Assembly: GCF_002277955.1 (NCBI RefSeq)
Contig: NZ_CP018477.1
Location: forward strand, 4,733,206-4,797,205
Reading direction: 5' to 3'
From: Thermogutta terrifontis
GTDB lineage: Bacteria > Planctomycetota > Planctomycetia > Pirellulales > Thermoguttaceae
Length of the DNA: 64,000 nt
Shown: in pieces, positions 1 through 20,071 of the stretch
How the letters are laid out: each line of letters starts with the position of its first letter
Position numbering within the stretch: position 1 is the first letter of the stretch
Translations under genes and position numbers: made by a program
Notes under the pieces: generated by a model
Told to the model about the DNA's origin: nothing
Databases searched by the model: none
The model's input: the letters and a program-made list of their open reading frames with translations, nothing else

Positions 1-348
1 GTGAACACAAAAGGGGATCCCAACCGCTACTTACTCCCTGAAGATAAAGGATTTGAAGAAGGGCTTAGATTCTCAGTTCGAGAGATTGCCCGCACGTTTC
101 TCAATATGCCCGATGCCTCAATCGATTTCTGTCCTGTGGACATTCGTCGCAAGGTCGTTCGTCACTACAACATGCATATGCAAGGTTTTGTGGGTATCTT
201 CGAATTGAGCGGGCCTCCCGAGGTGCTCAACCTTATCTATCAGGTCGGCTTGGGCGTCCGCCGGAGTCAAGGTTTCGGCATGCTGGAGCTCCTCCAAACG
301 ACCCGCTACGAGAAACTCCCCAAAGGGAAGGAACATATCCATGTGTAG
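1..348 (+). CDS. cas6: CRISPR-associated endoribonuclease Cas6, C-terminal part (gene cut by window edge)
   Basis: Cas6 cuts the precursor CRISPR RNA inside each repeat and is shared by type I and type III effectors. Only the last 115 residues are visible. They contain the glycine-rich loop typical of the Cas6 C-terminal ferredoxin-like domain (GLGVRRSQGFGMLEL, about residues 82-97), preceded by a beta-strand region ending in GPPEVL. The first codon shown, GTG, is more likely an internal valine than the start, because complete Cas6 proteins are usually 200-270 residues. The stop overlaps the start of the next gene by 8 bases, so the two are probably translated as one operon. The catalytic histidine/tyrosine region lies outside the window and cannot be judged. 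Confidence 0.85.
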   Translation: MNTKGDPNRYLLPEDKGFEEGLRFSVREIARTFLNMPDASIDFCPVDIRRKVVRHYNMHMQGFVGIFELSGPPEVLNLIYQVGLGVRRSQGFGMLELLQTTRYEKLPKGKEHIHV

Positions 349-1534
349 CCTTACCCTATACCCCTCCAACTGGCTCTACAACGCAGGCGTGATTGGCCTA
401 CTGCGGGTGCTAGAAAGGACTGGAGCAGACCCTCTAAGATGCCTTTCAGAAGCAGCGGTTCAAATAAGATTTTCCATATTATGCTCCAGTGTCAAAGATG
501 TAGAACTAGAACAAGATGATAAAGAATTCACAATACCTTTACTTGCCCGAGAGTGGCTGTTGGAAAGCTGGGAAACATTGACAGAGAAAAAAGAAAAGAC
601 TGAATGCGGAAAGATTAAGGAGGTCTGGGGGAAACTTTTTAATACCTGGTATAGAGGTTTCTTTAATGCCGATACAAGATACTTATTCAAAGAATCAAAA
701 AAAACTAAACCACTAATCATCCAATTTGGTGACTTTGTAAGGTCTTTTGGACACCCCTGGGGAAACGGCGATACATGCTCATTTTGCTTCAGGAATTCTC
801 GATTTTCCTACAAAAATATCTTCACCTCAGAACATTCTAAACTGCTCGGGGCCTCTGCTGGCGAGAGGGGTGTTCCCAATTCGTTTTGGAATCTCAATCC
901 TGAACAGAGTCTTCGGATTTGTGATTTTTGCAATTTTGTGTTGCTCAATCACCACCTCGCCCTGACCCGCCTTTCCGACGGCTCGGAAATCTTCATCAAT
1001 GCCCCGTCCTTTCAGGTGATGTGGTATCTGAACAAGTTTGCCCGGGAAGTGCTTGGACCGGCTTCGTCCGAGGAGATGCGGAGTAAAAGAAACATCCTGG
1101 CCATGTCCGTGATCGAGTATGCTACAAAGATCCAAGCGACGCTTGGCGTCTGGACGGGGATGAACATCGAGGTTGTCTCGAAGCGTGGGGGAGAGATCGA
1201 GTTCTTCAGTTTACCCTATGAGGTTATTCAACTCCTTGCGGACCGTCGAATTGCTTCGCTCCTGAGCCAGATCGGAGAGTTCAGCGTTCTCAATCTTGTG
1301 CTCGCTCAGGATTTCTCCCGTCTCCTGGAGCTCGGCTATCGGCTCCTGCGCATCGGACTTAAGACTGTTGTAGAGTGGGGGAAATCAGAGAGAGACTTTG
1401 TGAATCAGACGCTGAGGCTGGAGAAGAACAAGCAACATCCTGCCCGGGTGGCCGATCAACTCTTTCAGCTTTCCGCATTAATAGAGGAAAAGCGCCAAAG
1501 GAGGGAAACGTATGAGCGCTCCTGTATCTTCTGA
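341..1534 (+). CDS. cas8b1: Type I-B CRISPR large subunit Cas8b1/Cst1
   Basis: This is the probable large subunit of the type I-B (Tneap) Cascade complex, the part that helps recognise the PAM and hold the target DNA. The 397-residue protein begins MCSLTLYPSNWLYNAGVIGL, a start typical of Cst1/Cas8a1-like proteins. It carries two CxxC pairs, CSFC (about residue 146) and CDFC (about residue 193), which look like the zinc finger that gives the family its CXXC-CXXC name. The start overlaps cas6 by 8 bases and the end overlaps the next gene by 23 bases. The order cas6-cst1-(small ORF)-cst2-cas5-cas3 supports the call. The middle of the gene (roughly 460-840) is richer in A and T than its neighbours. 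Confidence 0.85.
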   Translation: MCSLTLYPSNWLYNAGVIGLLRVLERTGADPLRCLSEAAVQIRFSILCSSVKDVELEQDDKEFTIPLLAREWLLESWETLTEKKEKTECGKIKEVWGKLFNTWYRGFFNADTRYLFKESKKTKPLIIQFGDFVRSFGHPWGNGDTCSFCFRNSRFSYKNIFTSEHSKLLGASAGERGVPNSFWNLNPEQSLRICDFCNFVLLNHHLALTRLSDGSEIFINAPSFQVMWYLNKFAREVLGPASSEEMRSKRNILAMSVIEYATKIQATLGVWTGMNIEVVSKRGGEIEFFSLPYEVIQLLADRRIASLLSQIGEFSVLNLVLAQDFSRLLELGYRLLRIGLKTVVEWGKSERDFVNQTLRLEKNKQHPARVADQLFQLSALIEEKRQRRETYERSCIF

Positions 1535-2039
1535 AGCGAGCTTGGAACAGAAACTGCAACAGCTTGAAGAGCAACTAAAGGCGGGGACTCCCGATATCGA
1601 GCAGTTTCGCCAGACCTATGATGCACTGAGGGAGCTGAGTCGTAGGCTTCAGAGCCTCCTCCAGTGGGCCGCAGAAGACCGGCGAGGAACTAAAAATGAG
1701 AAGAAGTTCCAGGGGCTGTATCGGCAAGTCGCCGGATGGAATGCTTCTGAGCTCATGGAAAGCCTGAGGCGCACAGGCTTTGCTTTAAAGAAGGATAGCG
1801 AGCTAAAGGATGTCTTTGACCGACAAGGCTATCGCATCTTGGAGCTTGCCCGAGCCGGTAAGCGGGACGAAGCATTTCATGCCATTCTGCGTATCTTCGT
1901 CTCGGCGAAGAAGGAGTTCCCTTCCCAGCTTGTCGAAGCCTTCAAGCCGGTTTACTCAGATCAGCTTTTTAAGGTTTTTCTGTTTTCGTTCCTGAGCGGC
2001 ATCCTGGGTCAGGAAGAAACAGAACAAGAAAGCTTATAA
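1512..2039 (+). CDS. Small helical protein in I-B operon, candidate Cas11 small subunit
   Basis: This 175-residue protein has no motif I can name. It is predicted from composition to be almost entirely helical, with many Leu, Glu, Lys and Arg and a heptad-like start (LEQKLQQLEEQLKAG), and has no signal peptide. It overlaps the end of cas8b1 by 23 bases, has a strong ribosome site (AAAGGAGG) about 8 bases before its ATG, and sits directly before cas7. Type I-B small subunits (Cas11) are known in several systems to be made from an internal start inside cas8. A stand-alone gene in this slot is therefore a reasonable Cas11 candidate, but this is inferred from position, size and helicity only. Confidence 0.55.
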   Translation: MSAPVSSEASLEQKLQQLEEQLKAGTPDIEQFRQTYDALRELSRRLQSLLQWAAEDRRGTKNEKKFQGLYRQVAGWNASELMESLRRTGFALKKDSELKDVFDRQGYRILELARAGKRDEAFHAILRIFVSAKKEFPSQLVEAFKPVYSDQLFKVFLFSFLSGILGQEETEQESL

Positions 2040-3158
<1,119 letters not shown>

Positions 3159-3184
3159 AACATAACTTGAATAGGCAGTGTACA

Positions 3185-4003
3185 ATGTCCGCAAGCTTGG
3201 GTTACATCTTACGGATCAGGATTTATCAGCCGCAGGCGCACTATCGGGTACCCTTCACCCATCAGCGGCGGCATACCTATCCTATTCCGCCCTACTCCAC
3301 CGTGATTGGATTTCTCTGCAACGTGCTGGGAATTGACGACCAGGAAAAAGAGGAATACAGGAAGCTGAGAGCGATCAAAATCTCCATCGCCGGTCGCTTT
3401 GAGAGCAAAACCACGGAATATACCTGGTTTCGTAACCTATCTCAATCGGCTCATGTGGATCGTTTCGGCAGTATCGAGAACCGCAGTATCGGTGGTCATG
3501 TGGAGCACATCGGCGGCCAATCCCCCGTTTCGATTGATGTCCTCAACGATGTCCGCCTCGTACTTCACCTGGCGCATGAGGACAAGTCATTCCTGGAACG
3601 GGTTCGCGTTTCATTGGAGAATCCCGTTCGCCGGCTGGAGGTTCTCCATCTTGGTCGAGCCGAGGACTGGATTGTTATAGAGGAACTATCACGCATCCAC
3701 GATTTCTCCGACTATACCTCTTCAAGAGTAGATGCTGACTTTAAGCATTTCTTCTGGATTCCAGAGAAAACGATTCCCGAAGCCAATGATCAGCACTCGG
3801 GTTTTCAAGACTACGAGGGACTTTTCTATCGGCTCCCGACCTTTTGGACCGTGGAGGACTATGTGCAGACTGGGAATCGCCATGGGAGGCGAATCTTCGA
3901 TTATATGACCGTCAAGTTGAGCGACGGTTTATTGGTCGGCAAGAAATTTCTTTTCGACAAAGAAAGCCAACTGCCTGTTTTCCTTGCGAATTTCAGAGGT
4001 TAA
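3185..4003 (+). CDS. cas5: Type I-B CRISPR protein Cas5
   Basis: Cas5 caps the 5' handle of the CRISPR RNA in Cascade and contacts the large subunit. The N-terminal region reads IRIYQPQAHYRVPFTHQRRH followed by YPIPPYSTVIGFLCNVLGI, which is the Cas5t pattern (F/Y-R-x-P then P-P-x-S-T-x-x-G). I chose the ATG at 3185 (272 residues) over a TTG at 3167, because the conserved strand starts right after it; the ribosome site is weak in either case. Its stop is two bases before the cas3 ATG. This protein is a subtype I-B Cas5 without sign of the catalytic Cas5d type, consistent with a separate Cas6 doing the processing. Confidence 0.87.
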   Translation: MSASLGYILRIRIYQPQAHYRVPFTHQRRHTYPIPPYSTVIGFLCNVLGIDDQEKEEYRKLRAIKISIAGRFESKTTEYTWFRNLSQSAHVDRFGSIENRSIGGHVEHIGGQSPVSIDVLNDVRLVLHLAHEDKSFLERVRVSLENPVRRLEVLHLGRAEDWIVIEELSRIHDFSDYTSSRVDADFKHFFWIPEKTIPEANDQHSGFQDYEGLFYRLPTFWTVEDYVQTGNRHGRRIFDYMTVKLSDGLLVGKKFLFDKESQLPVFLANFRG

Positions 4004-4005
4004 GT

Positions 4006-6774
4006 ATGACCACAGCTGCGGATATCTGGGCCAAGAGCAGCGGAAGAGACGGCGGCCGCGGGGTACGCCTCCATGAACACATCCAGGATGCACTAGCGGT
4101 TTTTGACAAAATCTTTGACAAAATCAAGGACCGCGTCGATGGCCCTTTGTGCGAACTCATTCGCCTTGCTATCGTCTGTCACGACTGGGGAAAAGTGCTA
4201 CCCGCCTTTCAAATTCAGCGGCTGAAAAATAAGTGTTACACCCCGTGTTCTCCCCTCATCGATATTCCTCACTCGTTCTTTTCCCTTCTGTGGATAGATG
4301 AAGATAAGCTCAACCAACGCTTGCCGGAGCAGGATACTAGGACTTATCGGGAATTTCTTCTCTCCGCCATCGCCTACCATCACTGGCGGGAGAGCTTCTT
4401 TGAATTGATTAGCGCCCCAAATGCAGACGTTACCCGATTGATGGTTGCGTTAAGCACCGTGATAGACAGGCTAAAAGCAAACTTGCAAACGGAGATTCGG
4501 AAGCTAGGGGATGGGTGGCATGAGCTTGTGGGATTCAATGAGACGATGGCGAGCGGCTTGCGCAATGGAGTTCCCTTTTCGGAATACGCCCGGCCACCGT
4601 ACCAGCTTTATTTCCTGCCAAAACGAGCGGGATTAAACGACGAAAAAATGCGGGACTGGATTCTCATCGCCGGATTTCTCCAGCGTGCAGACCACTTTGC
4701 TTCGTTTTGTGAAGAAGAAGGCGAAGATCCAAGCATGGCAGAGGCGGAAATCTGCCCGATGAGCTTCAATGACGTCGTTAAAGAAGTGCAGAAAAGAATA
4801 CAAAAGAGCACACAAAACTCTCCGGTAAATTCACAGGATGCCGCCACGATATGGCAACTTGATAAGATTAATGACTATAGGGATAAACATGCTATTTTGG
4901 TTGCCCCTACCGGCTATGGCAAGACGGAGTTTGCTTTCCTTTGGGGCAGCGGTGAGAAATTTTTTTATACGTTACCTCTACGGGCGGCCGTCAACCAGAT
5001 ATTTGAGCGGGCGAAGGCCATCTTCGGTGAGCAAAAGGTTGGCCTCCTCCATTCCGATGCCGATGTGTACTTGCTAGGAGATGGCGGGGAAGGCCAGGCT
5101 AACCTAAAGGCATATGATCTTGCCCGCCAACTGGCTTACCCGGTCCTCATCTCCACAGGCGACCAGTTCTTTCCTTACGCCTTGCGTCCGCCGGGATACG
5201 AGAAAATCTACGCCACATTCTCTTATTCGCGCCTCGTGATTGATGAGGTGCAGGCTTACGATCCGCGGGCCGCCGCGATCGTGGTCAAGTTCATTGAGAA
5301 CGTCGTTCGCATGGGTGGCAAGTTTCTCCTCATGACGGCCACCCTCCCGACCTTTATCGAAAAAGAAATTGATGCGATTATTTCTCACGATCACTGTACA
5401 CTTCTTAACCTTTACTGTGAAGAACAACGATTTAAACAGCTCCAGAAGCACCGGATCAAGGTGGAATTGCTCGAGAACCATGCCGATGGAGAGAAGATAG
5501 ACTTCGCCATTCCTGACAAGACGCTGGAAGAGGTGCTGAAACAAGCTTGTGAGCGTAAGCGGGTGCTTGTCATCGCAAACACTGTCAAACAGGCCCAGGA
5601 CATTTTCGAGAGACTGAAGGGTTTGATCGAGAAAGACGACCAGTATAAAGCGCTTAAGGATAAAATCTGGCTCCTGCATTCACGGTTCACCCAGGCTGAC
5701 CGCAATAAGCTAGAGATGGAAATTTGCGGTGATAGGAACACAAAGATTAACGGCGAGTTTCAGAACCCGAAGCCAGATTCTGAGCAACAGGGTAAAATCC
5801 TGGTGGCGACGCAGGTAGTGGAGGCTTCACTCGATATCGACGCCGATGTCTTGTTCACCGAGGTCGCACCACTTGATGCGCTCGTGCAGCGGATGGGCCG
5901 AATCCTGAGGCGATATGGTCCTGCAAGCGACCTACGGGATGTATCCTGCCCTGAAAATCCAAACATTTATATTTGGGTTTTCCAGCGTGGCCTGCAATCC
6001 GGGCAGCATTATGTCTATGATCCAGATCTTGTTTTGCTTACGATCAAGCTGCTCAAAGATCGACCCGATAAACATTGTAAAGATTGGCTATCTGAAAACC
6101 TAACAAAACATCCCAAACCTGATGATCGGACACAATCGGTTCTCGAAGAGGTCTTTGGTTGCGAGGAGGGATCACGGAGAGAAGGGAGAGAAAGGTCTCG
6201 TAAAGGAAAGAGAAAACGGCCAACCGATGAGCAGACGCCTTTTTCCCGCCCGCGCGAATTTGAGTTTGTCTGCTCTGAATATGACAAGTATGACCTGGTA
6301 AACAAGCTCTTCGAGTCGCTATCTGAAGAGACAGATTATTTGAGGACGTTTCGGCAGACTAAAGACATCCTTGATGCCGGTTATATGTCAGATCGCAAGG
6401 AAGACGCACAAAAGATCTTTCGGGACATACACACTCTATCTGTAGTCCCAGATCACAGAAGGGAAGATTTTATCACCGCTATTGAAAATTTTTTCAATAG
6501 CTGCGAAAACAAAAGAACGTCTTTTACTCTATTTAAGAAGGAGGTGCTTTCCAAATTCGTCGTGCAAGTACCTTTCTATGCGAAGCAAATACAGCAGCGC
6601 GAATTTAAACCGGTTGAGTGGTGGGTGAGGGATTTGTCATGTGTACACGGGGCACTTAAGAAGGTGTTGATGCGTTGGTGTCAGGATATCTATTTTGCAA
6701 ACTACAAGTATGACGAGAGAATGGGAATTATTGCAGAAGCGCCATGGGGTTGTCAGGATGTAGCAATTCTCTGA
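4006..6774 (+). CDS. cas3: CRISPR-associated helicase/nuclease Cas3
   Basis: Cas3 unwinds and degrades target DNA once Cascade is bound. The 922-residue protein has an N-terminal HD nuclease domain (His23/His25, the HD pair His59-Asp60 in CHDWGK, and later histidines in IPHSFF and AYHHWRE). An SF2 helicase follows: Walker A APTGYGKT (about 298-305), DEVQ box (about 412), TATLP motif III (about 443) and motif VI QRMGRILRR (about 628). All expected catalytic residues seem to be present. An open frame extends upstream to 3844 inside cas5; I take the ATG at 4006, two bases after the cas5 stop and with an AGAGG site. In Tneap operons cas4-cas1-cas2 usually follow, but they are not found here. Confidence 0.92.
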   Translation: MTTAADIWAKSSGRDGGRGVRLHEHIQDALAVFDKIFDKIKDRVDGPLCELIRLAIVCHDWGKVLPAFQIQRLKNKCYTPCSPLIDIPHSFFSLLWIDEDKLNQRLPEQDTRTYREFLLSAIAYHHWRESFFELISAPNADVTRLMVALSTVIDRLKANLQTEIRKLGDGWHELVGFNETMASGLRNGVPFSEYARPPYQLYFLPKRAGLNDEKMRDWILIAGFLQRADHFASFCEEEGEDPSMAEAEICPMSFNDVVKEVQKRIQKSTQNSPVNSQDAATIWQLDKINDYRDKHAILVAPTGYGKTEFAFLWGSGEKFFYTLPLRAAVNQIFERAKAIFGEQKVGLLHSDADVYLLGDGGEGQANLKAYDLARQLAYPVLISTGDQFFPYALRPPGYEKIYATFSYSRLVIDEVQAYDPRAAAIVVKFIENVVRMGGKFLLMTATLPTFIEKEIDAIISHDHCTLLNLYCEEQRFKQLQKHRIKVELLENHADGEKIDFAIPDKTLEEVLKQACERKRVLVIANTVKQAQDIFERLKGLIEKDDQYKALKDKIWLLHSRFTQADRNKLEMEICGDRNTKINGEFQNPKPDSEQQGKILVATQVVEASLDIDADVLFTEVAPLDALVQRMGRILRRYGPASDLRDVSCPENPNIYIWVFQRGLQSGQHYVYDPDLVLLTIKLLKDRPDKHCKDWLSENLTKHPKPDDRTQSVLEEVFGCEEGSRREGRERSRKGKRKRPTDEQTPFSRPREFEFVCSEYDKYDLVNKLFESLSEETDYLRTFRQTKDILDAGYMSDRKEDAQKIFRDIHTLSVVPDHRREDFITAIENFFNSCENKRTSFTLFKKEVLSKFVVQVPFYAKQIQQREFKPVEWWVRDLSCVHGALKKVLMRWCQDIYFANYKYDERMGIIAEAPWGCQDVAIL

Positions 6775-7673: not shown

Positions 7674-9329
7674 ATGTATCTCGTTATTGTGGACGCAGCC
7701 CAAATCCAGCCCTACATCTTCGGCAGCAACCGCCTGCGCGAGAACGTCGGCGCCTCGCATCTGGTTGCCCAGGCCACCACGGTATGGGCTCAAGAAGCGG
7801 TGCGACAGGTGGCCGCGCGACACAACATTCAATTGAAAGGAACCCTGGATGACACAAAGGGCATCGAAAACCCATCCGACCCGCTCGATGCCGAAGTACT
7901 CTATGCCGGCGGGGGGAACTTTATCGCCCTGTTTCGTGACGAGCGCTTGGCAAAGGCCTTCACCCGTGTGCTATCGCGAAAAGTATTAACCGATGCGCCC
8001 AACCTCCAACTGGTCATCGTTCGTAACCCCTTCGATTGGAGCGAGTCGCTCGTTCAGAAAATCAAGGCCACCTTTAAGAAGCTTACAGAGGAGAAGCGCG
8101 CCCGCACGCTATCTGCCCCCTTGCTCGGACTGGGTGTGACGGTGATGTGTCGGTCAACCGGATTGCCGGCGGTTGCTGTGGCTCCAGCTATCGGGGATGA
8201 TCCGGCTCGACCCGCATCAGCCGAGATTCTGGCCAAGTTGCGCGCTGTCGAGAGGAAAGATGGAAGCCCAAGCGAAGCCGATCAGCGCCTGAGAGAGCCT
8301 TTCCCACCCCCGGATGGCTATGATTACCCGAGCCAGCTTGACCACCTCGGCGGCACCCGAGGAGAGCACAATTTCATCGCCGTTGTCCACGCCGACGGAA
8401 ACGGCCTCGGACAGCGAATCATGGCAATCGGGGAGAAATACCCTGATCCATCACAGAACCGTGACTACATTAAGGCCCTGCGCGCCTTCTCCGAGGAAGT
8501 TGACAAAGCGGCACAGCAGGCTTTACGAGACGTCTTGAACAAACTGGTGATGCGCATTCAAAACGATGGTGGCGGCCGGATCGTTTACAGAAACGCTCTT
8601 GGCAAAATCATTGCCGAAGTTCAATTACGCAGGGAAGATGGTAAGTGTCTTCTTCCCTTCCGTCCCATTGTCTTTGGTGGGGATGATGTGACTTTTGTCT
8701 GTGACGGAAGGCTGGGGCTGTCTCTGGCTATTGAATATATGCGACAACTTGAGGAGCACACTAAAAACCTGCCTGATGGCAAAGGTTGTTTAACGGCATG
8801 CGCGGGTGTCGCCATCGTGAAAGCCCATTATCCCTTCGCACGCGCGTATACATTAGCGGATGAACTATGTCGGAAAGCCAAAAACTATCGTCGGACTATT
8901 CGTGATTCTCATGGTGAGTGGGATGGATCATGTCTGGACTGGCATTTTGCGCTAAGTGGGTCGTCGGGAGGCATGGAGGAGATCCGAAATCGGGAATACA
9001 GGGTGCAAGCCGGCTCTCTGACCGTTCGCCCCGTGACCCTGGGAGCTAACCCACGGGATTCAGGCCGAACCTGGACAGTCATAGAAAAAGGCATCACTGA
9101 GTTTCAAGGTGAGAACTGGGCGGGGCGCCGTAACAAAGTGAAGGCTCTGCGGGATGCGCTCCGGGAAGGCCCCGATGCTGTCCGGCATTTCCTCACGAAG
9201 TTCAATGAAAACAAACCGCTTCCCGAGGTGGAGCCGTCGCTGCCCGACTGGAAGACCACCGGTTGGCAGGGCGGGTCCTGTGGCTACTTTGACGCCCTCG
9301 AACTGGCAGACTGGTTTATTCCATTGTAA
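7674..9329 (+). CDS. cas10: Type III CRISPR Cas10-like protein without HD domain
   Basis: Cas10 is the large subunit of type III effectors and, when its GGDD motif is active, makes cyclic oligoadenylate signals on target RNA binding. This 551-residue version starts with a Palm1-like domain (IVDAAQIQPYIF near the N terminus, GGGNF at about 79-83), then Palm2 with VVHADGNGLG (about 236-245) and FGGDD (about 334-338). No N-terminal HD nuclease domain is present, so it is much shorter than usual Cas10 proteins. The GGDD residues appear intact. The start has a good ribosome site (AAAGGAG). It heads a coupled operon of RAMP genes and csx19, pointing to subtype III-D. No CARF-domain effector gene lies nearby. 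Confidence 0.85.
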   Translation: MYLVIVDAAQIQPYIFGSNRLRENVGASHLVAQATTVWAQEAVRQVAARHNIQLKGTLDDTKGIENPSDPLDAEVLYAGGGNFIALFRDERLAKAFTRVLSRKVLTDAPNLQLVIVRNPFDWSESLVQKIKATFKKLTEEKRARTLSAPLLGLGVTVMCRSTGLPAVAVAPAIGDDPARPASAEILAKLRAVERKDGSPSEADQRLREPFPPPDGYDYPSQLDHLGGTRGEHNFIAVVHADGNGLGQRIMAIGEKYPDPSQNRDYIKALRAFSEEVDKAAQQALRDVLNKLVMRIQNDGGGRIVYRNALGKIIAEVQLRREDGKCLLPFRPIVFGGDDVTFVCDGRLGLSLAIEYMRQLEEHTKNLPDGKGCLTACAGVAIVKAHYPFARAYTLADELCRKAKNYRRTIRDSHGEWDGSCLDWHFALSGSSGGMEEIRNREYRVQAGSLTVRPVTLGANPRDSGRTWTVIEKGITEFQGENWAGRRNKVKALRDALREGPDAVRHFLTKFNENKPLPEVEPSLPDWKTTGWQGGSCGYFDALELADWFIPL

Positions 9330-9348
9330 ACAACAAAGGAGGCTGCCC

Positions 9349-10038
9349 GTGAAATTGCAACTCCGCATAGAACTCAAGAGCGATGCGACCTTCGGCCGGG
9401 GCGACGGTGTGGTTGGACTCGTGGACGAAGAGGTGGAACACGATGCCTCCACCGGGTTGCCCTTTCTCCGAGGGCGTACGCTGAAGGGTTTGCTGGCTGA
9501 GGAATGCGCCAACATCCTGTACGCACTCCGCCGGCAGAATTCGCTCGCGTACTTCCGGCTCGAAGACGCGGCAAGGTTCCTCTTCGGGCAACCAGGCAGC
9601 ACCTTAAAGGACGAAGCGAGGATGCATGTCGGTCCGGCACTGCTGCCTGAGGAATTACGAGCCGCCATCGAGGCAGATATCCGCCAAGGCATTCTGAAAC
9701 CGGCGCATGTTCTGGAAGCACTTACCGCGATCCGCCGCCAGACAGCAGTGGACGAAAAAACAGGTGCCCCTGAGGAAGGCAGTCTCCGCTCTATGCGGGT
9801 CGTGCTGCGCACTACGCCCTTCATTGCAGAGTTGAATTTCGATGAAGAACCGGATCAGACGGCGAAGGCCCTTCTTGCCGCGTGCATTTTGTCTTTGCGT
9901 CGCGCTGGCACAGGCCGCAATCGTGGACGAGGGCGGCTCACGGCACGATTGCACGACGACCGGGGCAACGACATCACCGATGAGTGCTTTCAGCACTTCC
10001 GCCAACTTGTGAAGCTTGCGAATGGAGAAACATTATGA
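9349..10038 (+). CDS. Type III RAMP protein, single Cas7 domain (Csm3-like)
   Basis: A 229-residue RAMP-superfamily protein, probably one Cas7 backbone subunit that binds the spacer part of the CRISPR RNA. It starts with a strand and the pattern FGRGDGVVGLVDEEVEHD, then LPFLRGRTLKGLLAEECANIL, the G-R-T-L-K-G segment seen in Csm3/Cmr4-like proteins. The C-terminal glycine-rich loop is GTGRNRGRGRLTARL. I use the GTG at 9349 because AAAGGAGG sits 8 bases before it and the RAMP strand begins there; an upstream open frame inside cas10 is a shadow. Its stop overlaps the start of csx10 (ATGA). If its loop aspartate works like Asp33 of Csm3 it would cut target RNA, but this cannot be told from sequence reading alone. 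Confidence 0.78.
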   Translation: MKLQLRIELKSDATFGRGDGVVGLVDEEVEHDASTGLPFLRGRTLKGLLAEECANILYALRRQNSLAYFRLEDAARFLFGQPGSTLKDEARMHVGPALLPEELRAAIEADIRQGILKPAHVLEALTAIRRQTAVDEKTGAPEEGSLRSMRVVLRTTPFIAELNFDEEPDQTAKALLAACILSLRRAGTGRNRGRGRLTARLHDDRGNDITDECFQHFRQLVKLANGETL

Positions 10039-11648
10039 GGGTCATTATTTACCGCATCACGTTGCTTGAGCCAACGCTAGTGACCGCGATTCAGGGCGAC
10101 CCAAACGAGGGGGTTGCGTTTGATTATATTCCGGGCAGCACCCTGCGCGGGGCAATCATCAAGAAATACCTTCGTACCAACCACCTAACCGAACTGGATA
10201 GTGCCGATCCTCATATTCGCCGGCTCTTCATCGACGGCACAACGTCCTACCTCAACGGCTATCCGCTCGACAGCCTGGACAAACGCACCTTGCCCACGCC
10301 GTTATCGTGGCATCGCGAGAAAGGCAATGAACAGGAGATTTTCGATTTCGCAGCAGAGCTGCCGGATCTTCCAGACGACAAACAGTGGCAATGGGTCGGA
10401 ACGCCGTTCTGCTCACTGGGAGAACCGAAAGATGAAAGCAAGCGAAAGGTGCAGCTGGTTCGGCCAGACCGTCACATTGCCGTGCATACCGCGCGCACCC
10501 GCCGATTCGGACGAGCCATGCCAGCTAATATGATCGATTCCTCGAAGGGCGATGTGCCGGGGGCCGTTTATCGCTACGATGCCCTGGCCGGGGGGCAGAA
10601 ATTCGAGGCCATCACGATCTGCGGCAACGATGCCGACGCCCAGGAAATTCGGTCGCTGCTTAACGGGGAGGTTATGCTAGGCGGCTCGCGCAGTGGCGGC
10701 TATGGACGCGCCACGCTCGAAGTCATCCGTGAGGAGAGCACAGAGAGTTGGCGGGAAGTGGGACTCCCGTTCGTAACTGAAGTGGACGACAAGCTCATCA
10801 TCACCTTCTTGAGCGATGCGCTGATCCGCGACGGAAACGGTCAGTTCACTATTGATCCGCTTGTTGTCACGGAAGCATTATCGCAGCGTCTGGGCGTTCC
10901 ATTGAAATTGCAACAGGCATTCCTGCGTGGGGAAATCGTTGGCGGGTTCAACCGCAAGTGGGGCCTGCCGCTCCCACAAGCGCTTGCCCTCAGAATGGGC
11001 AGTGTGTTCGTGTTTGATAAACCAGACTGTGATAAAAGCAAACTGAGGCAGCTGGAGTTACAGGGCATCGGAGAGCGGCGGGCGGAAGGCTTCGGACGTA
11101 TAGCCATCAATTGGCATCCAGGAGCGAAGTTGGAGGTAGATCCCACTCCGCCCTCGCAAACTATTCGTCCCGCGCAAATTCCGTCGGATTCGGACAGCCA
11201 GAGGCTGCTGAAACAGATGGCGGAAAGAATGCTGCGACTGCGGTTGGACGAACGGTTGATCGCTCGGACCAATGATATTCATATCATCAATCCTCCAAGC
11301 AACGCCCAAATCTCAAGGTTGCGAAGTATTCTTCATGATGAGCTAATGAAAGAAACTCCCTCCACGCAACGAATCCTCGAGTTCCTGAACAGAATCAGGG
11401 AACGCAATACGGCACGCAGACAATTCGAGCGAGCTCGGATAGAAACGAAGTCCTTGTTGAACTGGCTTGAAGAGACACTTCAGGACTCCACCTGGGAAAC
11501 AAGGTTCGGATTTCAACAGACTGACGCTCCCCGGATCGGCAGCATCCAGGCAAGTCTCACTGATGCGCTTCGCATCGAGTATCTTATACGTCTGGTCGAT
11601 GCAGTGCTGGCCCGCGCCGTCAAAGAAAACCGAAAGGAGGCGAAATAG
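10035..11648 (+). CDS. csx10: Type III-D RAMP protein Csx10 with C-terminal helical (Cas11-like) domain
   Basis: The start MRVIIYRITLLEPTLVTAIQ and the following FDYIPGSTLRGAIIKKYL are typical of Csx10, the Cas5-related RAMP of subtype III-D. The 537-residue protein reads as three parts. A first RAMP domain ends in the loop LGGSRSGGYGRATLE (about 216-230). A second RAMP domain ends in GIGERRAEGFGRIAINW (about 344-360). From about 375 to the end lies a helical region rich in Arg, Leu and Glu. This layout is like the Cas7-Cas5-Cas11 fusion described for III-D variant complexes; the domain naming is my inference. ATG at 10035 overlaps the previous stop. Its stop is 2 bases before the next start. 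Confidence 0.82.
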   Translation: MRVIIYRITLLEPTLVTAIQGDPNEGVAFDYIPGSTLRGAIIKKYLRTNHLTELDSADPHIRRLFIDGTTSYLNGYPLDSLDKRTLPTPLSWHREKGNEQEIFDFAAELPDLPDDKQWQWVGTPFCSLGEPKDESKRKVQLVRPDRHIAVHTARTRRFGRAMPANMIDSSKGDVPGAVYRYDALAGGQKFEAITICGNDADAQEIRSLLNGEVMLGGSRSGGYGRATLEVIREESTESWREVGLPFVTEVDDKLIITFLSDALIRDGNGQFTIDPLVVTEALSQRLGVPLKLQQAFLRGEIVGGFNRKWGLPLPQALALRMGSVFVFDKPDCDKSKLRQLELQGIGERRAEGFGRIAINWHPGAKLEVDPTPPSQTIRPAQIPSDSDSQRLLKQMAERMLRLRLDERLIARTNDIHIINPPSNAQISRLRSILHDELMKETPSTQRILEFLNRIRERNTARRQFERARIETKSLLNWLEETLQDSTWETRFGFQQTDAPRIGSIQASLTDALRIEYLIRLVDAVLARAVKENRKEAK

Positions 11649-11650
11649 CC

Positions 11651-13147
11651 ATGCCCCACTCCCTCTGGTCGCCTGACACATCGCGGCGAATCATCGCCCG
11701 TATTGTGGTTGAGGGAGATCTGATCCTCCAGACCCCTGCGCATTTCAGCAATGGCGACACTGACGAGTTAACCGATATGCCGCTCCTGGTAGATCCCCTT
11801 GACGGCAAAACGGCGTTGTTGACGGGCGCTTCGATCGCTGGAGCATTGCGAAGTTACCTCCGCGACCGCGAGCATGGATATGGACGGCCCGCCGATCCTA
11901 ATTCAGCCAGTGTCCTGCTCTTTGGGAGCTTGAAAGGCGATGACGACGGGGAACAGAGCCCGCTCATCGTGGACGACGCGCTGGGAAAACAGGGAACATT
12001 TGGCATCGAGATGCGAGACGGAGTCAGGATTGATCCCAAAAGCCGTACCGCGCAACAGCATAGGTTATTTGATCTGCAACTGTGGCCGGCGGGCACGACC
12101 TTTCCGCTGCGGTTTGAGTTACTCATCCGCGAAGGGGATGATGCTTCCGCTTTGAAGCGCGCCTTGGCAACTGCGCTCGCGGGATTCAACGATGGGGGCA
12201 TCACGCTGGGCGCACGCAAACGGCGCGGCTACGGACGGGTGAGCGTTGCGGGATGGCGGGTCAAGACGTATGACTTGACCCACGCTGATGAGCTGCTCGA
12301 TTGGATTGAGCATGGTGACGAACCGCTGACAAACGTTACGCCTGTTGCCGACATTGTAACCGCCCTGGACATTGCCGCCTTGGTGGATGATCAGCGCGAG
12401 TTCTTCCATATCTCCGCTACGTTCTTGCTCGATGGCTCACTGCTCATTCGGTCCGGCAGTGGGCAGGACGATCGGGGACCGGACATGGTGCACCTCCACG
12501 CGCGGCAGGCGGACGGGACCCGAAAGCCAGTCTTGTCCGGGACGAGCCTCGCCGGAGCGCTACGGACGCGAGCGCTGAAGATAGCCAATACATTGGACAC
12601 TTCTCACAATAGGACACGTGCAGAAGCATTGGTTGATGCAATGTTTGGAGCGGACATGGACAAAGTGCAGAAGCGCAGGCAACAGGGCGATACAGGCGCA
12701 ACACCATTTGCCAGCCGCGTCATGGTCACCGAGACCGTCATGCAAAATGTGAAAACGGATCTCGTCCAACACCGTGTCAGCATAGACCGCTTCACCGGCG
12801 GCGCGAGAGAGACTGCGCTGTTTAGCGAGCAGCCCGCATTTGGTGGCAATGATACAAACGTTACCATTGACCTGCGCTTGGTAAACCCGACGGACCACGA
12901 GATCGGCTTGCTCCTGCTGCTACTCAAGGACCTGTGGACAGGCGATTTGCCCTTAGGAGGCGAGAGCAGCGTCGGAAGGGGACGGCTTAGCGGAGAACGG
13001 GCAACACTCACGCTCCAGCGCAACGGAGCACCCATAACTTGGAAGATTATCACCAGTGGACATGGACTGACCATTGTCGGCGACCGTAATCAACTCGAGC
13101 GATTTGTCGCCGCACTCAATCGGCACTTGCAGGAGGTAAAGACGTGA
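11651..13147 (+). CDS. Type III-D double RAMP protein (Cas7-2x-like)
   Basis: This 498-residue protein contains two RAMP domains in one chain. The first starts IARIVVEGDLILQTPAHFSNG, has LLTGASIAGALRSYL (compare the G-x-S-L-x-G segment), and ends with LGARKRRGYGRVS (about 188-200). The second starts ISATFLLDGSLLIRSG (about 256), has VLSGTSLAGALRTRA and ends with LGGESSVGRGRLSG (about 436-449). Such a tandem would supply two neighbouring backbone positions on the CRISPR RNA, as Cas7-2x does in the III-D variant effector. The ribosome site AAAGGAGG lies 11 bases before the ATG. The stop overlaps the GTG start of csx19. No missing half or frameshift is seen. Confidence 0.78.
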   Translation: MPHSLWSPDTSRRIIARIVVEGDLILQTPAHFSNGDTDELTDMPLLVDPLDGKTALLTGASIAGALRSYLRDREHGYGRPADPNSASVLLFGSLKGDDDGEQSPLIVDDALGKQGTFGIEMRDGVRIDPKSRTAQQHRLFDLQLWPAGTTFPLRFELLIREGDDASALKRALATALAGFNDGGITLGARKRRGYGRVSVAGWRVKTYDLTHADELLDWIEHGDEPLTNVTPVADIVTALDIAALVDDQREFFHISATFLLDGSLLIRSGSGQDDRGPDMVHLHARQADGTRKPVLSGTSLAGALRTRALKIANTLDTSHNRTRAEALVDAMFGADMDKVQKRRQQGDTGATPFASRVMVTETVMQNVKTDLVQHRVSIDRFTGGARETALFSEQPAFGGNDTNVTIDLRLVNPTDHEIGLLLLLLKDLWTGDLPLGGESSVGRGRLSGERATLTLQRNGAPITWKIITSGHGLTIVGDRNQLERFVAALNRHLQEVKT

Positions 13148-13737
13148 AACGTGAGATCATATCGCGTCCTGCGGTGGTTGAACCCATCACAGATTGTTCC
13201 ATCAGCGACGTAAAAGTCTGGCTACAGACACAGGCTATTCAGCACAACCTGAGGTGGCTGCTGGCGCACGCTGACGACGGTGTGATCTGGGGTGAGCTGC
13301 GCGATGGACAGTTGGTCACATCTGACAGCGTGGTGCCCGAAGTGTCTCCACCCCTTCGCGCCGAGACGCTGCAGCAGGCGCGATTATTCGCCATTCACGC
13401 CGAACTCCTGCTCTGGCGGGATGGCGACAACCGGTGGCGTGCGCGTTTGATTCGCGACGCAGCAGAAGGAGAAGACTATGCGTTCACCGACGCCATTGAT
13501 GAACCGCAGATTCTCTGGGGCACCGATCCCCAGCCACTCGCCAACGGCTTCACGCTGATGAGCGATGGCGCACAAGGACTGCGCCATGCCATCCCGCTCG
13601 CTGTGAGAGGGAAATTTGACGAATCAAGCCGCCCCCTGCGCCTCTGGGTGCGACATTATCTGCAAGACGATGAAAGTGGTTTCACCCGCATCGTCGCCAG
13701 CCGACTCTTCGACGTGAAATTGGAGGAAGTAAAATGA
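13144..13737 (+). CDS. csx19: Type III-D CRISPR-associated protein Csx19 (TIGR03984 family)
   Basis: A 197-residue protein matching Csx19 in size, context and in the segment ARLFAIHAELLLWRDGDNRWRARLIRD, a strand-rich stretch I associate with this family. Csx19 is found only with III-D systems and has been seen as a structural subunit of a III-D variant complex; its exact job is unclear. The start is GTG at 13144, overlapping the previous stop (GTGA) with GGAGG 6 bases upstream; the end overlaps the next ATG (ATGA). The central part FTDAIDEPQILWGTDPQPLANGF then GAQGLRHAIPL also fits the family as I remember it, but I could not run a profile search. Confidence 0.7.
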   Translation: MKREIISRPAVVEPITDCSISDVKVWLQTQAIQHNLRWLLAHADDGVIWGELRDGQLVTSDSVVPEVSPPLRAETLQQARLFAIHAELLLWRDGDNRWRARLIRDAAEGEDYAFTDAIDEPQILWGTDPQPLANGFTLMSDGAQGLRHAIPLAVRGKFDESSRPLRLWVRHYLQDDESGFTRIVASRLFDVKLEEVK

Positions 13738-14573
13738 GCAATCGTCAGAAGTTAAATCTACCCAAACATAAAAATCCCTCCTCCCATCGCATCGCCAGCG
13801 CACCTTATAACTTTGTACCATTGCCCGAAAAGGTAGTGACGGTGGTGGAAAACGCCAATGAATTACCTGACCACGACCGCTATGACCCTGACCGACACAC
13901 AGGTTATTTTGAGGTGACACTGACCACGAAATCTCCTTTGTATGTACGATGTCCGCTCACCCGCGAGGAATTTGACCTGGAGGAACAAAACAAAGACAGG
14001 CACGGTCGTGCAGTCGACGATCGGACACGTTACACCGATCGCATCAAAAACACACCCGATTTCTTCTACACCCGCGACCGCAACCGCCCCGTCATTCCCG
14101 GCAGCAGCCTGCGCGGGATGCTCCGCAGTGTGCTGGAGATTGTGAGCTACGGAAAAATGCAATGGGTCACGGATAAAAGGCTCATCTATCGAGCTGTTGG
14201 TGATCCTTCATCGTTAGGTGATCATTATCGTCAGCAGATGCTCGGGCCTAATAGAGCCGCAAGTCCGGACATGCATTTCGACTATCCATCTCCACAGGTA
14301 AAGGGTGGATATTTGCGAAAAACAGATACTGGATGGGCTATCCAGCCCGCTCAGGAGATAATGGGCGAGACGTTTGTTCATGTCGAATACGATCACGCTG
14401 AGCCTATTATTGGAGGACACGGTCGGCAACGAGTACACGACGTGTTTGTTCAGCCAGCTCAACGAACACCTTCCAGCCGTGGGCGACATGGTCGGGGTAA
14501 TTTAACCTTGGACCTAGCGATAACACAGAAAGTATCGGCTTCGCCAGATCCCGATCTGGTTCCAGCCAAACTA
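13734..14573 (+). pseudogene. TIGR03986-type RAMP gene, 5' part, interrupted by IS630 insertion
   Basis: The first 280 codons of a large RAMP protein (TIGR03986 family, Cas7 with a long insertion) start MSNRQKLNLPKHKNPSSHRI and include FEVTLTTKSPLYVRC and VIPGSSLRGMLRSVLEIVS, the conserved N-terminal RAMP segments. At codon 280 (CTA, 14571-14573) the gene meets the left end of an IS630 element. Without excision the frame continues about 18 codons into the element and stops at 14627. Joining 14573 to 15817 restores one uninterrupted frame of 722 residues, so this is a recent insertion in a formerly intact gene. It is the last gene of the III-D operon, so loss should affect this subunit only, not downstream genes. 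Confidence 0.85.
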
Positions 14574-14601
14574 GTGCTCCGTCACAGGAAAATTTTGGGA
14601 T
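14574..14601 (+). repeat. IS630 left terminal inverted repeat
   Basis: Twenty-eight bases beginning GTGCTCCGTCACAGG and ending TTTTGGGAT, directly after the TA target. They match the reverse complement of the right end with one mismatch (A versus T at position 17). Confidence 0.92.
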
Positions 14602-14670
14602 TGTCTTGGGTGGGTGGGATGGGATAGGATGGGTGGTCGTTTCCGTTCCCTTTTGCCAAGGAGGGTTGCC

Positions 14671-15806
14671 ATGCGAAAGAAGTATATTGTCCGGCTGACC
14701 GAGGAAGAACGTCAGAAATGCCAGGAGGTCATTCGCAAGCTGAAGGGGACCAGCCAGAAGGTCCGTCGCGCTCAGATTCTGCTGAAGGCGGACGCGGACG
14801 GTCCGGCCTGGACGGACCAACAGATTGCCGAAGCGTTCGGGTGTCGGCGACAGACGGTGGAGAAGATTCGTCAGCGTTTTGTGGAACGGGGTTTTGAGGA
14901 GACGCTGGAAGGGAAGAGCCGGTCGGGGCCACCAGCGAACAAGATTCTGGATGGGGAGGTGGAAGCGAAAATCATTGCCACCCGTTTGGGGCCGCCGCCT
15001 GCGGGTTACGGTCAGTGGACGCTTCGCCTCCTGGCCCGTCGGTTGGTGGAGCTGAAAGTGGTGGAATCGATCAGCCACGAGACAGTACGCCGGGCGCTAA
15101 AAAAAACGAGATCACGGCGCGGAAGATTCAGTACTGGGTGATACCGCCGGAGGCGGATGCGGAGTTTGCCGCTCAGATGGAAGAGGTGCTGGAAGTGTAT
15201 TGTCGGCCGTATGATCCGTTGCATCCGGTCGTTTGCATGGACGAGCAGCCGGTGCAGTTGGTGAAGGAAGTGCGGCGTCCGATTCCGGCGACGAGAGGGC
15301 ATGCCCGGCGAGTGGATTACGAGTATGAACGAGCGGGGACGGCGGCGATCTTCCTGTTTTGCGAGCCCTTGGTCGGTTGGCGTCAGGCAACGGCGCGGGA
15401 ACGTCGGACGAAGAGTGACTGGGCCACGGAGGTGGCGGCGCTTTTGGACGGGCGTTACGCGGACTGTGAGCGGATCACGCTGATCTGCGACAACCTGAAC
15501 ACGCACACGAAAGGGGCGTTTTACGAGGTGTTCCCAGCGGAGCGGGCTCGTCAGTACGTTCGTCGCATTGAGTTTGTTTACACGCCGAAACACGGCAGTT
15601 GGCTGAACGTGGCGGAGTGCGAGTTGAGCTGTTTGACCCGGCAGTGTCTAGCGGGGCGTCGTGTGGGAGAGTTACGTCTTCTTCAGGAGGAAATTGCGGC
15701 GTGGTCGGGAGACCTAAACGCTCGGCAGCGGGGTGTCGACTGGCAAATGACCGCGGAAGATGCCCGCTGCAAACTGAAGTCTGTTTATCCCAAAATTATC
15801 CTGTGA
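14671..15806 (+). CDS. IS630-family transposase, two frames joined by probable -1 frameshift
   Basis: DDE transposase that cuts and joins the element at TA sites. Frame A (14671-15141) encodes the N-terminal helix-turn-helix part (TDQQIAEAFGCRRQTVEKIR) and linker. Frame B, one base back, encodes the catalytic core and ends at 15806, with the three acidic residues in VCMDEQP, LICDNLNTHT and GSWLNVAECE. The frames overlap at a run of eight A (15099-15106), a slippery A-AAA-AAA site that would give a fused protein of about 378 residues. Several IS630 elements use such a -1 slip; a chance single-base loss in the A-run is the alternative. The ATG has GGAGGG upstream (14660-14665). Confidence 0.85.
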
Positions 15807-15814
15807 CGGAGCAC
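15787..15814 (-). repeat. IS630 right terminal inverted repeat
   Basis: Read on the minus strand, 28 bases starting GTGCTCCGTCACAGG, with one mismatch to the left end. It begins before the transposase stop, so the last codons of the transposase lie within the repeat, and it is followed by the duplicated TA. Confidence 0.92.
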
Positions 15815-15816
15815 TA

Positions 15817-17145
15817 GTGGAGTCAGGTCACATAGGTGGCAAGCATCCCAAGCACTGGCATTGTGCAATCTACCAGCCTGATCCCAAGCGGCCACTTATT
15901 CCTATACCAGATGAGCTGTGGCAGATATATCAGGAGGATCGGGATTTGACTCGTGGATTGCCTACTCGCCCATTAACCAGAGATGGTGATCCTCTTTTCT
16001 ACCTGGTCGATGGGGCGGGTAATCTTGTATTCTTCGGACCTACGATGATGTTTCGCCTCCCCTATCAGCGATCAATTCATCAGTTGATCCCTGAACCGCT
16101 CCGAGACCCATTACAGGTTGACTATGCAGATGCAATATTCGGGTTTGTGAGGAGCAAAGACGACTTCCCAGCTACACAACTACCGCCGCAAGGCGACAAG
16201 CGTCGCGCTTACGCCGGACGCGTATTTGTAACCGATGCCGTGTTGGAAGAAGGCCAGACTGACTACTGGCTGTCCGATAAACCAATCACTCCCAAGATCC
16301 TCGCGACACCCAAACCCACCGCTTTTCAGCATTACCTGACCCAACAGGAGCCCGACGATAAGAACCGACTTGATCACTACGATAGCCCACCACCGCATGA
16401 AACTGTGATCCGCGGGCACAAACGCTACTGGCATCAGGGACTGAGTACGGACGAGGGATTGACGCTCGATCAAATGAGGGAGCGGATCGAGGAAAAGAGG
16501 GCGGGGCTCCGCGAGTTAGAAACCAGCACCCAACATACGCAACTTAGGCCTGTAAAACCAGGCGTGAGATTTAAGTTCCGGATCTACTTCGAAAACCTTT
16601 CTGACCGTGAGTTGGGGGCATTGTGCTGGACGCTACACCCGTTGGGCAATCCAGCGAAGACCTACTGTCATCATCTCGGCATGGGCAAGCCCCTGGGTAT
16701 GGGAGCAGTAAAGCTGGAGGCCACACTGTATTTGACAGATCGTCCAAAGCGCTACAGCTCACTCTTTGAAGACGATCACTGGCACACGGGAGTTACAGAT
16801 TCCGGCCAATCGCTTTCCGATCGGTCAACATTGGAAAGGCTCACGCAGGCCTTTGAGCAACACATCCTCGGCACGCTCGGGTTGAATAACCGCCGTCATC
16901 TTTCCGAAATCAAGCGTATTGGGATGCTCCTGAAGATGATGGAATGGCCCGGGTATCCGCCCGTTCCAAACATACCTCCCTTCTTGACAGTGCAAAACCG
17001 ACCTAATACGCGGTACATGACCATTCAACCCAAAAATGAGTACCGCGAGCGTCCGGTTTTGCCCGACCCATCCGCGTTCGACCCAACTCTCCAGAAACTG
17101 GCAGAGCCGGATACTGGCAATTCGCGAGGTTCGGCTTGTGGATGA
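15817..17145 (+). pseudogene. TIGR03986-type RAMP gene, 3' part, separated by IS630
   Basis: This 442-residue open stretch continues the interrupted RAMP. It reads ESGHIGGKHPKHWHCAIYQP right after the junction, then a long middle region (the insertion of the Cas7 domain) and ends with the RAMP-like loop HLGMGKPLGMGAVKLEATLYL (about residue 290 of this part). The GTG at 15817 could serve as a start by accident, but no ribosome site precedes it and the protein would lack its first RAMP strands, so I call it a broken gene. Its last residues (EPDTGNSRGSACG) look less conserved; a second frame (17036-17275) overlaps the end, so a late frameshift in the C-terminus cannot be excluded. Confidence 0.8.
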
Positions 17146-17744: not shown

Positions 17745-17773
17745 TTGACAGGACTGGCTTTCTTTCATACGCT
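17745..17773 (+). promoter_or_regulatory. Probable promoter of the CRISPR array (leader)
   Basis: A perfect -35 box TTGACA (17745-17750), a 17-base spacer and a weaker -10 TACGCT (17768-17773) point at the array. Transcription would start near 17780, about 100 bases before the first repeat. The direction agrees with the repeat ending ATTGAAAC, the usual 5' tag of mature CRISPR RNAs. Confidence 0.5.
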
Positions 17774-17778
17774 TAGTT

Positions 17779-17826
17779 GCAGTCGATCTCCAGGGATTTT
17801 CGCACGACCGGCGATCGACTGCAAAA
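17779..17826. repeat. 12-bp perfect inverted repeat in the CRISPR leader
   Basis: TTGCAGTCGATC at 17779-17790 is repeated exactly in reverse complement at 17815-17826, with 24 bases between. It starts a few bases after the predicted -10 box, so it could be an operator or a 5' hairpin of the pre-CRISPR RNA. The function is unknown. Confidence 0.6.
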
Positions 17827-17879
17827 CAGGGGGTGGGAGGAGGGCGGAAAGCCCGGAAAATAGCGGCTTTTGCGGGTGG

Positions 17880-20071
17880 GTCTTAATCGAACCAAGTTGG
17901 GATTGAAAGAGTTTGAAAACGTCGAACTGCGTCTTGATCGCTCTGTTGTCTTAATCGAACCAAGTTGGGATTGAAACCTTCCAGAACTTTGATCATTGTA
18001 TCCACTGGCATGTTGTCTTAATCGAACCAAGTTGGGATTGAAACGGGACTGTGAGTCTCAAGATTTTCGCCTCCGACGTTAGTCTTAATCGAACCAAGTT
18101 GGGATTGAAACCTTGAATCGCTTGCAGGCGGTCGAGCGTGTCGGGCTGTCTTAATCGAACCAAGTTGGGATTGAAACGTGGGTCTCACAGCTTGGCATTC
18201 GGCATCGCCAACGCGTCTTAATCGAACCAAGTTGGGATTGAAACGCTTAAAAGCGGATGTCCCCTGCGCTTTTAATTTCTAGTCTTAATCGAACCAAGTT
18301 GGGATTGAAACTTATCTTATTGTCCCGCATGTACTCCACTACATTGGGAGTCTTAATCGAACCAAGTTGGGATTGAAACATCAGATAGAACTGATTGGTG
18401 GTGACGGAACAGACATGGTCTTAATCGAACCAAGTTGGGATTGAAACCTCAGGAAGGCACTCTAATTCGGGAGGGGCTTCAGTGGTCTTAATCGAACCAA
18501 GTTGGGATTGAAACGGGTCTCATTGCTGATGTAAACACGTTCAAGTCCTTGTCTTAATCGAACCAAGTTGGGATTGAAACTCAAAAATGTTTTCGTCACA
18601 GCTCACGTACGGATTTTCGTGTCTTAATCGAACCAAGTTGGGATTGAAACCGCGCTCACACGTTCGCAAAAATATGATAAGCATACGCCGTCTTAATCGA
18701 ACCAAGTTGGGATTGAAACGTGCGAAGTCTTTTGTTGTCTCAACCGTCCACCTGCGTCTTAATCGAACCAAGTTGGGATTGAAACGAGCATACTTTACTT
18801 TCTCTCGGACTGATTCCCAGATCGTCTTAATCGAACCAAGTTGGGATTGAAACTCTTCAACAAGGATGTTGAAGGGGAGAGCGACGCGGATGTCTTAATC
18901 GAACCAAGTTGGGATTGAAACTGGCGTTTAGGACTGAACCGCGGGGGGGTCCTAACGCCAGTCTTAATCGAACCAAGTTGGGATTGAAACTCAATCAGTT
19001 TAGCGAGGCACTCAGCGTGACCCAGCGTGTCTTAATCGAACCAAGTTGGGATTGAAACGTGATCGACGTCATAATCGGCAGGCGGTGAGAATGGTCTTAA
19101 TCGAACCAAGTTGGGATTGAAACTTGTGCGACGGCAATCTTTATTAACAAGTTTCACTCGTCTTAATCGAACCAAGTTGGGATTGAAACCGCCATCACGG
19201 GGACCGCGTGTGGTTGTGCGTCTCAGAGAGTCTTAATCGAACCAAGTTGGGATTGAAACGCGAGCATTGCGTATCGATTCTGCTACCGTGAACGGTCTTA
19301 ATCGAACCAAGTTGGGATTGAAACAGGATAGGTTATCCAGTTTGCAATGTCATTTAAAGTAAGAGTCTTAATCGAACCAAGTTGGGATTGAAACCCTTTG
19401 AAGGCAATTGGAAGCAAATAACAAAAATCAGTCTTAATCGAACCAAGTTGGGATTGAAACCGCATGACGCTCTGGAGCGGCAATTTGCATCGCTCTTTGT
19501 CTTAATCGAACCAAGTTGGGATTGAAACTTAGGTGGTCCTTGATTGCGTACGCGTCCGATACAACGTCTTAATCGAACCAAGTTGGGATTGAAACAACAA
19601 ATTAATACTTTCTATGTTGTATGATATACTGAAACGTCTTAATCGAACCAAGTTGGGATTGAAACCGTGATCCAGCACTGTTTTAATCACCTCGCCGAGA
19701 CCGTCTTAATCGAACCAAGTTGGGATTGAAACGTAATTCTTTGGTATCAAGGCGATACCAAACCTCAGGTTCGTCTTAATCGAACCAAGTTGGGATTGAA
19801 ATCGCATAGGGTGATTCAATTATGTCTCCGATCTTGTGTCTTAATCGAACCAAGTTGGGATTGAAATTGTCGGTGTTTTTAAGCACCAATTTAAACTTGT
19901 CCGCCAGGTCTTAATCGAACCAAGTTGGGATTGAAATCGTAGTCACTGGCCGAGTCTTCCCGGCCCCGTGACGGGTCTTAATCGAACCAAGTTGGGATTG
20001 AAATGCCGGTGACGGTGTTTTCACTCACACAGGTGCGCTCTGTCTTAATCGAACCAAGTTGGGATTGAAAC
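17880..20071 (+). CRISPR. CRISPR array, 33 repeats of 30 bp and 32 spacers
   Basis: The repeat is 30 bases, starting GTCTTAATCG and ending GGGATTGAAAC. I count 33 copies, the first at 17880-17909 and the last at 20042-20071, separated by 32 unique spacers of about 34-41 bases. The 3' end ATTGAAAC indicates transcription on the + strand with the leader at the left, next to the cas genes. The repeat is very uniform: the only changes noted are at its last base, G in repeat 1 and T in repeats 29-32 (starts 19773, 19838, 19908, 19975), while repeat 33 has C again. Four spacers contain strong hairpins (see findings). One cas6 probably serves both I-B and III-D systems from this array. Confidence 0.98.

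Follow-up and report, generated by a model that had tools for sequence, protein, structure and literature searches.

According to sections of a review (PMC9048733), type III-A CRISPR adaptation that is free of reverse transcriptase (RT) prefers hairpin-forming DNA and proceeds without a PAM, and the favoured sites are single-strand origins, oriT, and tRNA and rRNA genes. The same sections describe laboratory experiments in Streptococcus thermophilus and Staphylococcus epidermidis, in which capture is PAM-independent and uses Cas1-Cas2 alone. A different route is represented by RT-Cas1 of Marinomonas mediterranea, which acquires spacers from RNA (excerpts of PMC11014452). Type I-B adaptation in Clostridioides difficile uses Cas4-Cas1-Cas2 and a CC-type PAM, and the excerpts of that article name no hairpin bias (PMC8406132). 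In E. coli, the hairpin-cleaving nuclease SbcCD influences the pattern of primed adaptation (excerpts of PMC6896009), and hairpins could conceivably be favoured through such a route. Excerpts of another article describe palindromes in repeats and hold nothing on hairpin spacers (PMC13034035). The literature as partially covered here yielded no description of natural I-B or III-D arrays with an excess of hairpins, although such partial coverage leaves its absence unproven.

The arrays of Thermogutta terrifontis resemble the type III-A case, as sections of PMC9048733 present it, in that spacers from foldable DNA are in surplus, the sources include a tRNA gene and an RT is lacking. Hairpins in this genome are enriched over natural DNA (9 of 197 spacers, against 1.02–1.22 expected), as structure-biased type III adaptation would entail, but capture is not of the PAM-independent, Cas4-free kind. 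Unlike type III-A, the flanks are mostly CCN (5 of 7), Cas4 is present, the effectors are of types I-B and III-D, and the evidence comes from a natural array. A structured RNA gene among the sources is shared with M. mediterranea as described in excerpts of PMC11014452; in contrast to that system, no RT was found fused to or beside Cas1, and capture appears to be of a motif-flanked DNA type. The Cas4-Cas1-Cas2 module and its CCN-like 5′ motif are shared with C. difficile. Other I-B-like arrays that we examined differ from those of Thermogutta in showing no bias for stems of at least 8 bp.

Array A and its hairpin spacers

The window, meaning the whole 64,000-nucleotide stretch that was analysed, comprises bases 4733206-4797205 of one 4.81-Mb contig. 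It carries the following effector genes, leader and array.

1..6774, + strand: type I-B genes (Cas6 C-terminal part, Cas8b, Cas11b, Cas7, Cas5, Cas3)
7674..13737, + strand: type III-D effectors (Cas10d, Cas7-type, Csx10 (Cas5-type), Cas7-type, Csx19)
13734..17145, + strand: Cas7-type III-D gene interrupted by an insertion sequence, with parts at 13734-14627 and 15817-17145
17750..17879, + strand: leader of array A, common to four sister arrays, with the inverted repeat GCAGTCGATC/GATCGACTGC
17880..20071, + strand: CRISPR array A, 33 repeats (30 nt) and 32 spacers (35-40 nt)

Type I-B membership is indicated by Cas8b, Cas7, Cas5 and Cas3 beside 30-nt repeats, together with a Cas4-Cas1-Cas2 module that lies some 100 kb upstream of the window. 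The insertion sequence (14570-15819) encodes a DDE_3 transposase, and its terminal inverted repeats match at 30 of 33 positions. Because it splits the Cas7-type gene, the III-D effector may be impaired.

The array A repeat is GTCTTAATCGAACCAAGTTGGGATTGAAAC, with a variant last base in 5 of 33 copies. We take the array to be oriented so that the repeat end ATTGAAAC precedes each spacer, on the basis of the sequence and of the usual form of crRNA handles. The inverted repeat of the leader is kept in all five leaders of arrays A–E. A search of array A against its own genome gave no convincing match except to other arrays and array trailers, and Rfam matched only the repeats of this array and of array C. 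Directly 3′ of array A, positions 20115-20715 hold short palindromic repeats in tandem blocks, in which a block of 217 nt recurs at 94% identity.

Five spacers of array A form strong hairpins.

18245..18281, + strand: spacer 6, TTAAAAGCG/CGCTTTTAA, 9-bp stem with an 11-nt loop
18854..18891, + strand: spacer 15, CTTCAACA/TGTTGAAG, 8-bp perfect stem with a 4-nt loop
18922..18960, + strand: spacer 16, end-to-end pairing with one bulge, -20.5 kcal/mol
19733..19772, + strand: spacer 28, TTTGGTATC/GATACCAAA, 9-bp perfect stem with a 5-nt loop
19938..19974, + strand: spacer 31, GTCAC/GTGAC plus GGCCG/CGGCC, two stacked 5-bp stems, -16.4 kcal/mol

A first-pass annotation had pointed out spacers 15, 16, 28 and 31, all of them exactly placed, and had overlooked spacer 6. 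It had also stated that random spacers rarely fold in this way, and this proved correct. Each of the 32 spacers was compared with 1000 dinucleotide shuffles, with folding energy averaged over both strands, and the shuffles did not reach equal stability. Specifically, four of the 32 spacers, exactly those named in the annotation, have P ≤ 0.01 for folding energy (0.32 expected). Four of the 32 spacers contain a stem of 7 bp or longer, against 0.43 in shuffles (P = 0.002), and three contain a perfect stem of 8 bp or longer, against 0.09 (P = 0.001); the mean energy of both strands is -6.57 against -5.62 (P = 0.002).

Since shuffles understate the background, real DNA was used as a control, namely 135,801 bases of non-array sequence from the same genome and 61,908 bases from related phages. 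Stems of 8 bp occur in 0.52% of natural windows from the host and 0.62% of those from phage. Against these backgrounds, the three array A spacers with stems of at least 8 bp compare with 0.17 expected from host DNA (P = 6e-4) and 0.20 from phage DNA (P = 1e-3), and the four with stems of at least 7 bp with 0.86 or 0.84, respectively (P = 0.01). The excess is therefore smaller against real DNA than against shuffles, yet it persists. Mean folding energy shows no clear shift relative to GC-matched natural windows (mean z -0.31, SE about 0.2), and the excess thus consists of a tail of few strong hairpins rather than a general shift.

The annotation had further proposed that such hairpins should hinder guide loading. 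Thermogutta is thermophilic. At 60 °C and with an 8-nt handle, the predicted stabilities of spacers 15, 16, 28 and 31 weaken to -6.7, -12.6, -5.7 and -9.4 kcal/mol, and for these reasons any putative hindrance would perhaps be less severe than at 37 °C.

Sister arrays and arrays of other genomes

Four further arrays in the genome share their repeat and leader with array A exactly or almost exactly: B (72 spacers), C (36), D (44) and E (15). Arrays A–E together hold 199 spacers, or 197 when identical ones are counted once. At the ends of arrays B, C and E lie similar palindromic elements of 208 nt with GCGAGT-type arms, each followed by a degenerate repeat. These trailers were excluded from the pooled counts and were still counted as spacers in a first per-array stem count.

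L011 16591-16798, L012 15183-15390 and L015 10264-10471: 208-nt palindromic trailers

A same-genus genome has three repeat matches at 239-nt spacing (L136, about 138-645), which look like the 208-nt trailer unit with its degenerate repeat in tandem.

The pooled arrays have stems of at least 8 bp in 9 of 197 spacers, against 1.02 expected from host DNA (P = 1e-6) and 1.22 from phage DNA (P = 5e-6); for stems of at least 7 bp, the count is 14 against 5.28 and 5.17. Array C alone has stems of 10, 12 and 8 bp, and its count is 3 against 0.26 expected. Array B, the largest, shows no clear excess over natural DNA, with 2 against 1.56 at 7 bp or longer and 1 against 0.24 at 8 bp or longer. An unrelated array, F (L013 1666-6959; 80 spacers of about 30 nt, 36-nt repeats), has no stem of at least 7 bp (0.45 expected); it shares a 20-kb stretch with the second cas1 of the genome. 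The excess is a tail effect involving roughly 5% of spacers.

Arrays of other genomes were sampled around Cas1 genes and then in a larger set, from which 288 near-duplicate spacers were dropped, as were arrays with repeat or spacer lengths beyond the set limits. In the first sample, 1203 I-B-like spacers had 46 stems of at least 7 bp against 32 in natural DNA, where ‘I-B-like’, here and below, is a label based on repeat and spacer lengths and locus rather than on typed cas genes. A general type I-B preference for hairpins, suggested by this sample, fails in the larger set at 8 bp or longer. There, 2024 I-B-like spacers from 36 arrays in the order of a Caldanaerobacter genome have 15 such stems against 5.4 in shuffles and 14.6 in natural DNA, and 74 stems of at least 7 bp against 51.6 natural (P = 0.002). 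Stems of at least 8 bp were likewise counted in 476 other I-B-like spacers, mostly from mesophiles (1 against 3.4 natural), in 795 spacers of other repeat types (5 against 5.0), in 198 spacers of a short-spacer group (0 against 0.8) and in 266 spacers of other repeat types from thermophile-labelled loci (2 against 1.2), the thermophile and mesophile labels being our assumption from organism names. Higher counts came from 188 I-B-like spacers of other thermophile-labelled loci (5 against 0.9 at 8 bp or longer; P = 0.002), from one 48-spacer array (2 against 0.0 expected) and from 426 I-B-like spacers of other Planctomycetota (21 against 12.2 at 7 bp or longer; P = 0.014). These group counts at 8 bp or longer indicate that the strong excess is a property of this genome and perhaps of a few others. 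A weak hairpin effect in some hosts is compatible with the counts.

Spacer sources and the adaptation module

Searches that covered viral contigs, phages and plasmids as well as four same-genus genomes gave no protospacer for spacers 15, 16, 28 and 31. Array A as a whole gave one weak match each in the phage and plasmid collections, arrays B and C gave none in the phage collection, and a Caldanaerobacter array gave no phage match and four weak plasmid records. Among same-genus genomes, one relative contains protospacers of the sister arrays, and array D found none. A protein of this relative’s phage contig, used as a viral-contig query, led to two close phage contigs; viral-contig searches with the portal protein of L135 and the RecT protein of L133 returned no relative, and L137 was the sole return of the final scan. 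RusA, Terminase_6N, RecT, integrase and Mu-type portal domains occur among the matched contigs and their neighbours, which identifies these contigs as phage or prophage. Rfam found nothing at gathering score on five phage or host contigs.

A local search of all 199 spacers against eight loci gave seven convincing matches: B15 (84%), B18 (100%), B29 (100%), C12 (100%), E12 (100%), E13 (97%) and E15 (91%). Six of these seven lie outside the set of long hairpins. The exact match of B18 (L011 12875-12913; 39 of 39 nucleotides) is to an FAD-binding oxidase gene on a same-genus contig (L131 5997-6035) that looks chromosomal rather than viral.

Spacer B29 (spacer 29 of the neighbouring array B; L011 13622-13661; -17.1 kcal/mol) is identical at 40 of 40 nucleotides to positions 3662-3623 of L137, which lie inside a tRNA-Met gene (3617-3686) of the phage contig IMGVR_UViG_3300017832_000096. 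This gene is also present on the related contigs L132 and L138. The spacer forms two 5-bp stems and no long perfect stem, and its crRNA would be antisense to the tRNA, judging by the protospacer strand. The proposal that hairpin spacers come from phage hairpins or genes for structured RNA is thereby borne out in one case, which lies outside the window, while the four spacers for which it was made remain without a match.

A CCN motif lies directly 5′ of five of the seven protospacers, a small sample (CCG for B29 and C12; CCA for E12, E13 and E15), as expected of a 5′-side type I-B PAM; B15 has TGG and B18 has CGG. The adaptation genes are as follows.

L012 9663-12333: Cas4b, Cas1b (348 aa), a 90-aa open reading frame and Cas6b, of which Cas4b and Cas1b were identified by profile

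The 90-aa frame was assigned to Cas2 by position and reading frame only. Cas1 is 94% identical to Cas1 of a Thermogutta MAG and is not fused to an RT, and the RVT_1 domain (PF00078) has no match in the 99.98% complete genome. The CCN flanks, the lack of an RVT_1 match and the Cas4-Cas1-Cas2 module make these spacers look like DNA-derived, PAM-dependent memories, some of them from structured loci.

Origin of the hairpin surplus

The hairpin spacers are, somewhat probably, ordinary double-stranded DNA (dsDNA) memories, some of which come from naturally folding loci of phages and other mobile elements. They were most likely captured by the Cas4-Cas1-Cas2 module, which would serve the five arrays that share one leader, and this one module presumably made all of them. 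Its sources would be phages and other mobile elements carrying CCN at the 5′ side. Some spacers would be cut from folding loci: the single case that is proved is a tRNA gene, and the other such spacers, presumably including the four of the annotation, would derive from terminators, operators or palindromes of the origin type. With about 8 strong hairpins more than expected among 197 spacers, foldable invader DNA is most likely over-sampled in this host, owing to the sources that it encountered and perhaps also to folded single strands becoming exposed. That the Cas4-containing, PAM-dependent I-B/III-D machinery actively favours foldable invader DNA, such as tRNA genes and palindromes, is doubtful, and any active preference of this kind would be an inference. 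Extension of the folded-DNA preference from type III-A to such a module is unproven.

Passive sampling, in which invaders rich in palindromes or a chance run supplied the hairpins to machinery that has no preference for structure, is an account that we regard as rather unlikely. Array A was picked because of its noticed hairpins, array B lacks a clear excess, and the 2024 I-B-like spacers from another order are on a par with natural DNA at 8 bp or longer, all of which would fit such sampling. However, related phage DNA is not rich in palindromes (1.22 expected against 9 seen), the pooled probability for the five arrays is about 1e-6 to 5e-6, and array C, outside the window, is independently in excess. 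Palindromes could also be made during capture, by a strand that folds back and is copied, so that the hairpin is absent from the source. Such an origin would explain why five stems of at least 7 bp in arrays A–E are centred exactly on the spacer (0.05-0.1 in shuffles, 0-0.4 in natural DNA), why two of the exactly centred stems span the whole spacer and why the two ends of 3 of 199 spacers are complementary over 5 bp or more, against 0.2. We nevertheless consider it very improbable: the centring was spotted post hoc and was not replicated among the 2024 spacers (3 against 2.3 natural), several stems are far off centre, and B29, the proved structured spacer, matches its source completely.

Reverse transcription of structured phage RNA followed by integration is one form of the acquisition from structured RNA that the annotation had raised, and it could draw on the tRNA gene among the sources, since tRNA is both abundant and structured. 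This reading is already largely refuted and scarcely credible, and a reverse-transcriptase origin was rejected, since no RVT_1 domain was found in the genome, Cas1b stands beside Cas4, Cas2 and Cas6 with no fused RT, and the CCN flanks, that of the tRNA protospacer included, point to selection of DNA.

Spacer hairpins need real-DNA controls, as shuffles understate the background up to about threefold (5.4 against 14.6 in one group), and most I-B-like arrays examined here show nothing unusual at 8 bp or longer. The arrays of Thermogutta provide a natural-array test of an idea that has so far come from laboratory acquisition experiments, namely that folded DNA is preferred as CRISPR memory. If an active preference were true, structure-guided capture would extend beyond PAM-independent type III-A adaptation and would be readable from natural arrays.
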